Assembly: GCF_021474425.1 (NCBI RefSeq)
Contig: NZ_JAKEIP010000022.1
Location: forward strand, 1 to 64,000
Direction of reading: 5' to 3'
DNA: 64,000 nt
Source of the DNA: Streptomyces muensis
GTDB taxonomy: Bacteria; Actinomycetota; Actinomycetes; Streptomycetales; Streptomycetaceae
Shown here: piece after piece, positions 40,368-44,864 of the stretch
Layout: each line of letters opens with the position of its first letter
Position numbering within the stretch: the stretch's first letter is position 1
Notes under the pieces: model-generated
Databases searched by the model: none
The model's input: only the letters and a program-made list of their open reading frames with translations
What the model was told of the DNA's origin: nothing
Translations under genes and position numbers: made by a program

Positions 40368-41330
40368 TCACCGTGCCACGCTCAGTGACAGCGCGAACCG
40401 GCCCTCGCCGTCCGTCCACCAGTGCGCCAGCTCCAGTCCGGCCGCCGACAGTTCCGCGCGGACACCGTCCCGGCGGAACTTCGCCGACACCTCGGTGCGC
40501 ATCTCCTCGCCCGCCGCGAAGTCGACGGCGAGATCGAGCGCGGGTACCTTCACCGTCTGCGCCGTACGGGCGCGCAGCCGCATCTCGATCCACTCGTGGT
40601 TCGGATCCCAGAGCGCCACGTGCTCGAACGCGCCGGGATCGAAGTCGGCGCCCAACTCGCGGTTGATCACGGTCAGTACGTTCTTGTTGAACGCGGCCGT
40701 CACCCCGGCCGCGTCGTCGTACGCCTCGACCAGGACCCGCTCCTCCTTCACCAGGTCCGTGCCGAGCAGCAGCGCGTCACCAGGGGAGAGCAGGGCGCGG
40801 ACGGAGGCGAGGAACGCGGCGCGCTCGACCGGCAGCAGATTGCCGATCGTGCCGCCGAGGAACGCCATCAGCCGGGGGCCCGGCGTCTGCGGCAGCTCCA
40901 GCCCGCCGGTGAAGTCGGCGATCAGGGCATGCACGTCCAGCCCCGGCCGCTCCTCGATCAGCGCCTGGCCGGCCTGGGTGAGCGCGCTCTCACTGACGTC
41001 GACGGGGACGTACGTGTGCAGCCCGGTCAGCGCGTCGATGAGGTAGCGCGTCTTCTCCGAGGAGCCGGAGCCCAGCTCGACAAGAGTGCGGGCGCCGGTG
41101 GCCGCGGCGATCTCGCCGGACCGGCCGACGAGGATCTCGCGCTCGGCGCGCGTCGGGTAGTACTCGGGCAACTCGGTGATCTTCTCGAAGAGTTCGCTGC
41201 CCTGCGCGTCGTAGAACCACTTCGGCGGCAGCGTCTTCGGCGTGCTCGTCAGGCCCTTGAGGACATCGGCGCGCAGTGCGGCGTCGGTGGCGTCCTCGGG
41301 CAGGGTGCGGGTGACAAGGAACGGACTCAC
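40368..41330 (-). CDS. egtD: L-histidine N-alpha-methyltransferase (ergothioneine)
   Basis: A 320-residue EgtD. It has [20 protein letters not shown], the SAM-binding loop [33 protein letters not shown] and [11 protein letters not shown]. It methylates histidine three times to hercynine, the first step of ergothioneine synthesis. It is last in egtA-egtB-egtC-egtD. The GTG start overlaps the egtC stop (GTGA at 41327-41330), so translation is coupled. In its C-terminal half the substrate-site block [19 protein letters not shown] is present. Confidence 0.96.
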
Positions 41331-42244
41331 GTGCGGGGCTCCTCCGGTCGTGCGGGTGCGGGTGGCAGGGCGTCGCCGGGGTCCTTCAGCGGGGTGAGCA
41401 GCACATCGGTGCCGCTGGCCGCGAGGAGGGTGTGGTCGGGGACCTCCTGCCAGTGCGGATCGTCGTCGTAGGGCTCGGAGGCCACGACGGTGCCGCCGCC
41501 GGGCCGGGCCAGATACCAGAGGGTGTCGCCCCAGGCGGTCGCGGTGATCGTCTCGCCGTTGGTGAGCAGCAGGTTCAGCCGGGAACCGGGGGCCGCCTCC
41601 GCGACCTCGATGACGGTGTCGGCCAGCGCCTGTCCCGCGTCTTGAATTGCCGTTCGCCTCCGGGGCGCTACAGCCGGTGTCGAGAGCCCGACCGTGCTCA
41701 GCCCTTCGGGCCTCCGCGCGCTCGCGCTCTCGACACCGGCGCGCCCCTGCGGCTCACTTGTGTCGCCGCCCCGCAGTCGCGCGAGGACCAGCGCCCACAC
41801 GAGTGCCGAGTCGTTGCGGGCCTCCATCGACAGCACGTCCACCGCGGGCAGGGTCGGCACGAGCGGCGCGAGCGAGTCCGGCCAGCCCTTCACCGCGCCG
41901 TTGTGGCTGAACAGCCAGGGACCCGCGGCGAACGGCGCCGCCGCGGCCTCGGCGTCGGCGCCCGACAGCGTCGCGTCCCGTACGGCGGCGAGCAGCGCGG
42001 TGGACCGCACCACCCGGGCCAGATCGGCGAACGACAGATCCGCCCAGATGGGCCCGGCCCGACGGTACCGCGCCGGCACCGGATCACCCTCGGCGTACCA
42101 ACCGACCCCGAAACCATCGGCGTTGACCGTCCCGTGCCGCTGCCGCCGAGGCGCCCACGACTGGCGGTACAGGCCGTGCGGGGGCTCCACGAGAAGCTTG
42201 CCGAGCGGCGCCTCGGGACCCACATAGGCCACATGACGGCACAT
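41327..42244 (-). CDS. egtC: Gamma-glutamyl-hercynylcysteine S-oxide hydrolase (ergothioneine)
   Basis: A 305-residue class II glutamine-amidotransferase-like enzyme. The mature nucleophile is Cys2 (MCRHVAYVG), with [10 protein letters not shown] and [10 protein letters not shown] as active-site blocks. It removes glutamate from the EgtB product. EgtC proteins are usually nearer 230-260 residues; here an extra block of about 43 residues ([20 protein letters not shown], then [13 protein letters not shown] and RRRTAIQDA) lies between RLRGGD and GQALADTV. It is encoded by the palindromic element at 41636-41765 and stays in frame. The start overlaps the egtB stop by one nucleotide (TGATG). Confidence 0.93.
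41636..41765. repeat. In-frame palindromic insertion element in egtC
   Basis: Inner arms GCCGGTGTCGAGAGC (41673-41687) and GCTCTCGACACCGGC (41726-41740) are a perfect 15-bp inverted repeat. Outer arms GGGGCGC (41662-41668) and GCGCCCC (41741-41747) extend it after a 4-nt bulge. The centre holds a smaller AGCCC-TTC-GGGC(C)T hairpin. The whole looks like a non-autonomous palindromic element that codes for about 43 low-complexity residues within EgtC. The exact edges are inferred from where EgtC homology appears to break. Confidence 0.75.
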
Positions 42245-43563
42245 CAGGCATCCCCCGCGGAGCGGGCCGTGCGGAAACCGGAGAAGATCTGCCGGCGTAT
42301 CGGATGGTCCCAGTTGCGGAACGTGCCCCGGCAGGCCACCGCGTCCACGGCGAACGAGCCACCGCGCAGCACCTTGTAGTCGGGCCCGAAGAACACCTCC
42401 GAGTACTCCTTGTACGGGAACGCCTGGAACCCCGGGTACGGCAGGAAGTCGCTCGCCGTCCACTCCCACACGTCACCGATCAACTGCCGTACGCCGAGAG
42501 GGGATTCGCCCTCCGGGTAGCTGCCGGCCGGAGCCGGGCGCAGATGCCGCTGACCGAGGTTGGCGTGCTCCGGCGCGGGGTCGGCGTCGCCCCACGGGTA
42601 GCGCATCGAGCGGTCACCGGCCGGGTCGTGCCGGGCGGCCTTCTCCCACTCCGCCTCGGTGGGCAGCCGCCGCCCGGCCCAGCGGGCGTAGGCGTCGGCC
42701 TCGTACCAGCACACGTGCAGCACGGGCTCGTCCGGCGGTACGACCTCGGTGACGCCGAAGCGGCGCCTGAGCCACTGCCTGCCGTCCCGGCGCCAGAACA
42801 GCGGGGCGTGGATCGAGTGCTGGCGGATGTGCGCCCAGCCCTCCGGCGTCCACCAGCGCTCGTCGTCGTAACCGCCGTCCTCGATGAACGCCTGGTACGC
42901 GGCGTTCGTCACCGGGGTGGTGTCGATGTGGAACGACGGCACCTCGCGCACATGCGCCGGGCGTTCGTTGTCCAGCGCCCACGGCTCGGTGGAGGTGCCC
43001 ATGGTGAACGGGCCGCCGGGGACCAGCACCTCCGACGGACCCGTGAGCAGTGGCGCCGGCTTCGGGTCGGGGGCGTGCAGGGCCTGCGGGCCCTTGCGGA
43101 GCTGATGGGTGATCAGCATCGTCTCGTCGTGCTGCTGCTCGTGCTGGGCGATCATCCCGAAGGCGAAGCCCGCCTCGGTCAGCCGCGTCCCGTGGAACGC
43201 GGTGCTCTCCAGCAGGTCCAGGACCCGGCCGCGCACCTCGGCCGCGTAGTGCCGGGCCTCGGGCGGCGGCAGCAGCGGCAGCGAGGGGCGCTCGGCGCGC
43301 GGGTGCTCGAAGGCGTCGTACAGCCCGTCGATCTCGGGCCGCATCGCCTCCCGCCCCGCGACCGCCCGCAGCAGCCACTGCTCCTCCTGGTTGCCGATGT
43401 GCGCGAGGTCCCACACCAGCGGCGACATCAGCGGCGAGTGCTGGGCGGTCAGGTCGGGGTCCTCGACGCACGAGGTCAGCAAAGTGGTCCGGGCACGGGC
43501 GGTGGTCAGGGTGGTCAGAGCCCGCTCGCGGAGCGTCTCGGCGTCGTGGGCGGGGTCGGTCAT
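42244..43563 (-). CDS. egtB: Hercynine oxygenase (ergothioneine sulfoxide synthase)
   Basis: A 439-residue EgtB. An N-terminal DinB-like domain carries the iron ligands H-x3-H-x-E (AQHEQQHDET), and a C-terminal formylglycine-generating-enzyme-like domain has PVTNAAYQAFIEDGG, RRLPTEAEWEKAAR, GDVWEWTASDF and VLRGGSFA. It joins gamma-glutamylcysteine to hercynine with oxygen and non-heme iron. The ATG overlaps the egtA stop (ATGA at 43560-43563), and its stop overlaps egtC. The length matches the mycobacterial enzyme. Confidence 0.96.
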   Translation of the reverse strand: MTDPAHDAETLRERALTTLTTARARTTLLTSCVEDPDLTAQHSPLMSPLVWDLAHIGNQEEQWLLRAVAGREAMRPEIDGLYDAFEHPRAERPSLPLLPPPEARHYAAEVRGRVLDLLESTAFHGTRLTEAGFAFGMIAQHEQQHDETMLITHQLRKGPQALHAPDPKPAPLLTGPSEVLVPGGPFTMGTSTEPWALDNERPAHVREVPSFHIDTTPVTNAAYQAFIEDGGYDDERWWTPEGWAHIRQHSIHAPLFWRRDGRQWLRRRFGVTEVVPPDEPVLHVCWYEADAYARWAGRRLPTEAEWEKAARHDPAGDRSMRYPWGDADPAPEHANLGQRHLRPAPAGSYPEGESPLGVRQLIGDVWEWTASDFLPYPGFQAFPYKEYSEVFFGPDYKVLRGGSFAVDAVACRGTFRNWDHPIRRQIFSGFRTARSAGDA

Positions 43564-44864
43564 GTCCGGTCGTCCTTCCCGTGCAGGGTGCGTTCCGTGC
43601 CGTAGAGCTCGTCCAGCAGATCGTCGGCGGGGCAGCGGCCCCTGCTGACATGGCGGTCCCGGTACGCGGCCACCGCGTCCGTCACCTCGGTCGTGGCCCC
43701 CAGCCGGGGCAGCGCCTCCAGCGCCGCCGCGAAGCAGGTGTCGGCCACCTCCCGCAGCTCGGGGTCGGCCAGGCCCGAGCGGGCCGCGTCGATCCACAGC
43801 GGATTGTGCGGAGCGGGCAGCGACAGGGCACGCTCGGCCAGCGGCTTCACCGCGCGGTACGCGGTCTCGGCGGCCTCCGGGTCGTCGAACAGCGCGGCCG
43901 TCACGGCCAGCGGCACGATCCAGCCGTCCTCGCCGGGCTGCGCGTCGATCATGCGCAGCTCCAGATGGCCACGCGGTCTGACCGGCGGGAACAGCGTCGT
44001 GAGGTGATAGTCGAGGTCCTCCTGCGTAGGCGGCCTCGGCGCCCCCGAGCGGGTCCACTCCCGGAACGTCAGCCCGTCCGGGACGTCCCACGGGCCGCCG
44101 TCGCGCCGTACGCACATCACCGGCGCGTCCAGCACGTGCCGCGCCCAGGTGGCCCGCGGATCGCCGTCCAGCGGGGGTGCGCCCGCGCGGCCCGCGCCGA
44201 TCTCCATCCACAGCAGCTGTCGGGTGGAGAGCCAGCCCGTGGGCTCACGCCCGGCCAGCGGGGAGTTGGCGAAGGCGGCGACCAGGACCGCGCCCAGCTG
44301 ATGCGCCAGCCACCAGCGCCGCCCGTGCCCCAGCGGGCCGGGCTCCTCGTGTCCGGCGTCCAGGCACACCTGCACGGAGGCCGAGGTGCACATCATGGCG
44401 CGGCCGGCCGGGCCCGCCCGGTCCAGATACGCCTCCATGGCGTCGTAACGCGGCTGACGCAGGAACCGGCGGGGCGAGTGCCAGGGATCATTGCCGAGGC
44501 CGACCAGACCGAGACCGTGCTCGCGCAGTACCGCGCGGGCGGCGTCGAGGTCGGCGGAGACGGTACCGATGCACTCCATCAGCGAGGCGGCGGGCGGCGA
44601 GCTCAGTTCCAGCTGGCCGCCGGGCTCGACGGTGAGCGCCGACCTCAGGGGCACGGTCCGTAGTGCGGCGTAGGCCGCTTCGAGTCGTTCAGGTGCCACG
44701 GGGAGCTGCGGTCCGCGCAGCTCGTGGACGAGCCATTCCACTTCGACCCCGAGGGTGCGGGGCGGGCCGGTCTTGAAGCAGATGCCCCTGACCAGGGCCT
44801 CCACCTCGGCTTCGGCGACTGCGGTGCGGGGCTGCTCCGTACAGTCGCTCACCGAATCTGACAT
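43560..44864 (-). CDS. egtA: Glutamate-cysteine ligase EgtA (ergothioneine)
   Basis: A 434-residue ligase of the actinobacterial GCS2 type: TLGVEVEWLVHEL, TVEPGGQLELSSPP, GLGNDPWHSPRRFL, TASVQ-type block TSASVQVCLDAG, and PRGHLELRMIDAQPG. It makes gamma-glutamylcysteine, the sulfur donor used by EgtB; in streptomycetes mycothiol is the main thiol, so this ligase mainly serves ergothioneine. It opens the egtABCD operon. The start has a strong site (AGGAGG). The 297-nt gap upstream, up to the PARG-like gene, must contain both divergent promoters. No egtE (C-S lyase) gene is in this window. Confidence 0.95.
   Translation of the reverse strand: MSDSVSDCTEQPRTAVAEAEVEALVRGICFKTGPPRTLGVEVEWLVHELRGPQLPVAPERLEAAYAALRTVPLRSALTVEPGGQLELSSPPAASLMECIGTVSADLDAARAVLREHGLGLVGLGNDPWHSPRRFLRQPRYDAMEAYLDRAGPAGRAMMCTSASVQVCLDAGHEEPGPLGHGRRWWLAHQLGAVLVAAFANSPLAGREPTGWLSTRQLLWMEIGAGRAGAPPLDGDPRATWARHVLDAPVMCVRRDGGPWDVPDGLTFREWTRSGAPRPPTQEDLDYHLTTLFPPVRPRGHLELRMIDAQPGEDGWIVPLAVTAALFDDPEAAETAYRAVKPLAERALSLPAPHNPLWIDAARSGLADPELREVADTCFAAALEALPRLGATTEVTDAVAAYRDRHVSRGRCPADDLLDELYGTERTLHGKDDRT

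Follow-up and report, generated by a model that had tools for sequence, protein, structure and literature searches.

A 120-bp palindrome dispersed in Streptomyces genomes and inserted in frame in egtC of Streptomyces muensis, likely a non-autonomous element with a selected sense-RNA hairpin

The window analyzed here (64,000 nucleotides of Streptomyces muensis, contig NZ_JAKEIP010000022.1) includes, at 40368–44211, three minus-strand genes: an EgtD-like gene, egtC, and an EgtB-like gene (the two neighbors were named by eye), in an arrangement that resembles an ergothioneine operon. In a profile search, the egtC product scored 301.5 bits against TIGR03442 (cut-off 218.65), and it was also matched by Pfam GATase_4. 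Inside this gene lies a palindromic block, the parts of which are as follows:

41327..42244, minus strand: egtC, ergothioneine biosynthesis amidohydrolase EgtC (305 a.a. including the block; NCBIfam TIGR03442)
41642..41761, minus strand: inserted palindromic element, 120 nt or 40 codons (empty-site comparison and covariance model match)
41662..41668, plus strand: outer arm 1, 7 bp, GGGGCGC
41673..41687, plus strand: inner arm 1, 15 bp, perfect, GCCGGTGTCGAGAGC
41688..41725, minus strand: apical part, the most conserved sequence of the family, CGCGCGGAGGC-CGA-G..GAGCACG.TCG (invariant or near-invariant columns of a 55-sequence alignment)
41726..41740, plus strand: inner arm 2, complement of inner arm 1
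41741..41747, plus strand: outer arm 2, 7 bp, GCGCCCC

The egtC frame is open across the whole block, the translation of which (TSEPQ...TAIQ, 40 residues) is placed after Gly-Gly-Asp, and the catalytic Cys2 and conserved EgtC columns are kept in sequence comparison, in line with an earlier sequence-only reading of this DNA that had held the enzyme frame to be intact. The EgtC structure in the PDB (4zfj) aligned in two stretches (residues 1–119 and 205–287), which flank the block on both sides. From the sequence, the element is predicted to be translated in EgtC as a 40-residue loop. An AlphaFold2 prediction of EgtC from 41 close relatives had a mean pLDDT of 35, too low to contribute to this prediction.

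The edges of the insert were set by comparison with orthologous loci. The spacer from flank to flank measures 150 nt in the egtC of the window. It was compared with 29 other loci, drawn from 56 genomes with a match, and 26 of these are exactly 120 nt shorter, at 30 nt. The three exceptions have spacers of 27 nt (L098), 90 nt of different sequence in another genus (L100), and 111 nt (L104, where the block is nonetheless absent from the alignment). The covariance model of the family matched the egtC copy at 41645–41761 with 127 bits. The sequence-only reading was thus right in placing a block in egtC, though its edges (41636–41765) overshoot by 6 and 4 nt and its approximately 43 extra residues reduce to 40; both the 15-bp perfect inner arms and the 7-bp outer arms were located at the lengths it gave. 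Folding of 41620–41780 as RNA yielded −86.3 kcal/mol (z −4.5), with none of 200 shuffled sequences equally stable.

An alignment of 41 EgtC proteins shows the full block in three (40, 40, and 53 residues), a shortened one in two, and no residue of it in 36. The sequence-only reading had named two outcomes that would refute it, a block conserved in every EgtC and DNA that occurs nowhere else; neither holds. The 53-residue block belongs to EgtC of S. flaveus (P0029), where the extra residues sit in the hairpin tip.

The DNA is not restricted to egtC. A BLAST search with the element in the window's own genome gave 10 rows, which correspond to six distinct places and four opposite-strand matches of the same palindromes, and a search with one copy (C9) gave matches in 62 of 150 Streptomyces genomes. 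A covariance model, built from 55 copies (the window copy and 54 of 66 trimmed locus copies, the 12 more divergent or shorter ones being excluded), found matches in 128 of 295 Streptomyces genomes at 1–12 per genome, with 12 candidates scored per genome. At the level of the order, 54 of 147 genomes were positive, all from one of the five genera; at the level of the phylum, again with 12 candidates scored per genome, the model was positive in 7 of 296 genomes, comprising six Streptomyces and one marginal match (G473, E 2.5e-4). Scanning named genomes with a 32-nt pattern gave at least 118 stretches; among the 80 matches listed, the titles read Streptomyces in 79 cases and 'Actinobacteria bacterium OK074' in the other. 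Plasmid and phage collections gave no match to the element, and Rfam gave nothing above the gathering score for 401- and 501-nt stretches, only sub-threshold chance matches to microRNAs. The egtC block is therefore one copy of a family dispersed in Streptomyces genomes. Its members carry an A-rich 3′ end and NNAG, often GTAG or GGAG, at the 5′ foot of the hairpin. At L004, L005, L012, and L111–L115, among others, we also noted an extended version between genes, the flanks of which are conserved (5′ GGGCCCACC...CACCGGCCG, 3′ CCAAAAGAGGTGCG...GGCGCCT); the five at L111–L115 are near-identical copies at different sites of one genome (G207), some followed by a short repeated unit.

Most copies lie outside genes. 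With 80 of the at least 118 pattern-scan loci used for this count, 12 of 175 unique copies were flanked on both sides by one coding frame, 10 of them open (in eight genes) and two with a stop, and the rest failed this test. Together with egtC, nine genes thus hold an in-frame copy. By Pfam, the hosts include Hen1, MurJ, an MFS transporter, a PucR-type regulator, and a LuxR-type regulator; a further, unnamed host gene (L022, L023, and L183) is present in 58 of 61 genomes, and the L157 host resembles an oxidoreductase by eye. The frame that reads SEPx is used in six of the nine genes, a second frame in L049, and a third in L154 and L196. A separate peptide search found the block in five proteins among 132 candidates: EgtC of Streptomyces sp. 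S.PNR 29, an E2 acyltransferase, two glycosyltransferases, and a phosphotransferase. Pfam Hen1_L and APH were each matched as two stretches in element-bearing proteins, and in L003 the element is fused at the C-terminus of a GGDEF/EAL protein.

Three further host genes provided empty sites. Hen1 of S. spiralis (L196) has 192 nt where 30 of 30 other loci have 71–73 nt. MurJ (L031) also has 192 nt; of the 17 loci usable for comparison (five of 22 gave misplaced matches), 11 have 72 nt and the other six 75, 81, 87, 90, 90, and 195 nt. The unnamed L022 gene has 192 nt, as does the carrier L321, compared to 69 nt in 15 and 66 nt in 8 of 29 others; its remaining loci measure 72, 81, 93, 102, 168, and 327 nt. 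The corresponding insert sizes are 120 bp in egtC, ~120 bp in Hen1, 120 bp in MurJ, and 123 bp in the L022 gene, and from these lengths we take the unit to be 120 nt, with an uncertainty of one codon in the variable loops. The proposal of a small palindrome that enters genes without breaking them is borne out by the dispersal of the family, the clean empty sites in four genes, and the in-frame copies in egtC and eight other genes. Its dispersal and empty sites further suggest that the element is mobile. An ordinary EgtC loop is contradicted by the 36 of 41 proteins without the block and by the dispersal of the DNA elsewhere. More broadly, a non-mobile origin, either as a low-complexity EgtC loop or as a structured RNA that multiplies solely through segmental duplications, would suit the low copy numbers and the many sites common to several species (168 copies group by flank similarity into 87 site clusters); we consider it very improbable, however, given that the same DNA occurs both within genes that are unrelated and between genes, and that clean empty sites exist for it.

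Protein-invading palindromes are on record for Rickettsia and Wolbachia (PMC10969869 and PMC2229807). Rickettsia palindromic elements (RPEs), to which the sequence-only reading had likened the egtC block, measure 105–146 bp (PMC2229807) or ~150 bp and lie in frame in Rickettsia genes, according to PMC2229807 and PMC10969869. The Streptomyces element resembles them in length (120 bp), in its long hairpin (z −4.5), in the open reading frame within the element, and in having copies both between genes and in frame within several unrelated conserved genes. It differs in its free-living, high-GC hosts; a transcription-sense bias and a one-strand fold were measured for it. On dispersal, empty sites, and in-frame copies, the likeness holds, and the element works in the manner of an RPE; we do not count it among the RPE sequence family. 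MIRU of mycobacteria are short repeats between co-directional genes that overlap stop codons and form tandem arrays, features that the element shares. ERIC and Correia elements are also known from in-frame gene fusions (PMC2229807 and PMC10969869). Like the bacterial MITEs ERIC and Correia/NEMIS, the element is a short hairpin with open frames fused in frame to genes, but those have terminal inverted repeats and target duplications (PMC2229807), whereas we noted no clear duplication.

This last point bears on whether the family is an ordinary MITE, inserted at random by a DNA transposase acting in trans, with any sense bias due only to selection against antisense copies. That pattern, as described in PMC2229807 and PMC10969869, is matched by the family in size, in its hairpin, in being dispersed at low copy number, and in its fusions to genes in frame. 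However, 126 copies gave a mean shared word of 4.83 at their ends, compared to 4.66 on permutation, with 10 of 300 permutations as high and tandem arrays among the top scores, and no consistent target duplication was seen at the empty sites of the four host genes. The end arms match only partly in the 55-sequence alignment. No autonomous, gene-carrying copy occurred among the scanned loci longer than 2.5 kb, where half-element pairs were spaced at ≤60 nt in 281 cases and otherwise at 69–339 nt, apart from one at 6475 nt with a weak 3′ match. We regard the MITE account as possible but rather unlikely.

Mobilization as a REP-like element by a RAYT/Y1 transposase would accommodate the NNAG foot, which recalls REP sequences, and the element shares with REP/BIME units an imperfect hairpin, a conserved tetranucleotide-like foot, a position behind genes, and occasional tandem arrangement. 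Y1_Tnp (PF01797) was found in 46 of 150 genomes of the genus and is somewhat commoner with strong element matches (17/36 vs. 29/114, p 0.02), a weak lead, since larger genomes carry more of everything; across all positives, the association falls to 24/62 vs. 22/88 (p 0.105). The domain is absent from the window's genome and from the copy-rich genomes G032 and G117, and neither the Y1_Tnp search of the window's genome nor the search for inserted genes in the scanned loci disclosed a mobilizing enzyme. REPs are, moreover, extragenic (title of PMC12306157), whereas the Streptomyces element also enters coding sequence in frame. A RAYT-driven origin is, in our view, quite improbable.

The orientation of the copies relative to genes is far from random. 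Gene strands were called from codon or GC-frame statistics rather than annotation, and by codon statistics, 59 of the 87 site clusters lie sense to the flanking genes, compared to 8 antisense, 7 mixed, and 13 without a call (p 1e-10). An independent GC-frame call, which was right for 49 of 62 test stretches of the window and wrong for none, gave 57 sense, 12 antisense, 9 mixed, and 9 without a call (p 4e-8). No bias with the direction of replication was observed (31 vs. 27, p 0.69; 17 genomes, the origin assumed mid-chromosome and four mid copies omitted). Inside genes, all nine sites (eight tested on both strands, plus egtC) are sense. This stands despite the antisense frames being open more often: of 155 copies, 139, 133, and 149 are open in the three antisense frames, compared to 96, 64, and 48 in the sense frames. 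Weighting by this openness, nine of nine sense has p 5e-5. Where an upstream sense gene is present (42 clusters), its stop codon lies 9–58 nt ahead of the element in 22, is the element's own TGA in four, falls elsewhere within the element in five, and lies beyond it in 11, the last an upper bound, as upstream stops were sought only from 60 nt before the element onward.

The hairpin itself is maintained. In the 55-copy alignment, 95.6% of cells are paired, compared to 33–40% for slid structures, and both sides have changed in 21 of 37 stem pairs vs. 10.7 after shuffling, with none of 500 shuffles as high. Pairing errors are, moreover, asymmetric between strands. Among 101 distinct model-aligned copies (116 rows less the last 12, which are opposite-strand matches at the same places, and three duplicates), A-C mismatches number 25 vs. 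95.6 shuffled (SD 4.0), an approximately four-fold depletion, and G-U pairs 170 vs. 218 (SD 4.5), in an alignment fitted to the structure and holding related, non-independent sequences. With two G-U-rich pairs removed, the counts are 80 G-U and 25 A-C. Each A-C mismatch corresponds to a G-U on the complementary strand, so the conserved fold belongs to the strand reading SEPxGRAG, on which A-C is depleted and G-U tolerated. An ordinary MITE alone leaves unexplained why A-C was purged but G-U was not. Two considerations speak against reading this as selection on RNA: C-to-T mutation that favors one strand of transcribed DNA could account for the G-U excess, and the covariation could partly reflect template-switch correction of imperfect palindromes.

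Taken together, we favor, at a probability of roughly 60%, the view that the egtC block is a copy of a dispersed 120-bp palindrome that is likely non-autonomous, likely has a sense-RNA hairpin kept by selection, and is predicted to form a 40-residue loop in the protein. Directly observed are the family with its dispersal, empty sites, and in-frame insertions, the covarying stem, the asymmetry of G-U and A-C, and the sense orientation next to genes; an RNA role, translation of the block, and the way in which copies move are inferred from these. Under such a scheme, a trans-acting activity would land copies in or near transcribed genes, and those with the hairpin sense in the transcript, in most cases shortly after a stop codon and before a gene of the same direction, would be retained, with the hairpin possibly acting in the mRNA in processing, stability, or insulation. 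Since the element measures 120 nt and its sense frames are usually open, the rare copy that lands inside a gene may persist as an added stretch of protein; in-frame duplication or in-frame loss of the hairpin could follow. Going beyond the sequence-only reading, the analysis indicates that the element appears to be maintained as sense RNA.

Movement as RNA, in which the folded sense RNA would enter transcripts, be copied back to DNA, and be recombined into a gene, is a further proposal that we consider unlikely. If true, it would explain the sense orientation in and beside genes, the one-strand fold, and the missing clear target duplications and terminal repeats, as well as why the 3′ end is A-rich and why no autonomous DNA copy was found in the scanned loci. 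One reverse transcriptase gene (RVT_1) is present in the window's genome, and RVT_1 occurs in 60 of 150 genomes of the genus. Its association with the element (30/62 positive genomes vs. 30/88 others, p 0.09; 20/36 vs. 40/114 with strong matches, p 0.03) is likewise a weak lead, for the same reason as with Y1_Tnp, and an enzyme of either kind may yet be involved; against the proposal, the copy-rich genomes G032 and G117 are without RVT_1.

No description of this Streptomyces palindrome family was found in the open-access papers searched. Streptomyces is not among the genomes named in the parts available of two stem-loop surveys (PMC1590033 and PMC2267715) and of a REP survey (PMC12306157), and the word is absent from the main text of the reviews PMC2229807 and PMC10969869. 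A family in free-living, genetically tractable Streptomyces would make the entry of such DNA into genes without breakage directly testable, EgtC being an enzyme of solved fold. From the sense bias and one-strand fold comes a new clue, itself open to checking, that such elements may be kept or moved as RNA rather than as DNA. In annotation, the element also gives rise to spurious protein extensions.

Several copies depart from the single full unit, suggesting that the element can decay and multiply in frame. The two shortened EgtC blocks, in Streptomyces sp. NPDC057740 and S. viridochromogenes (P0006 and P0007), retain 16 and 11 residues with both ends kept, as would be expected from an in-frame loss of the hairpin following insertion. 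Conversely, an L022-type gene of genome G263 (L130:1–418, minus strand) holds two full in-frame tandem units of 40 residues, followed by the start of a third that the contig end truncates. Between genes, L129:1501–1915 contains three head-to-tail copies, each starting with the GCGAGTGAGCC motif, and at L018:2723–2875, a second, weaker copy (54 bits) lies at the 3′ end of a glycosyltransferase gene that also bears one near its start.
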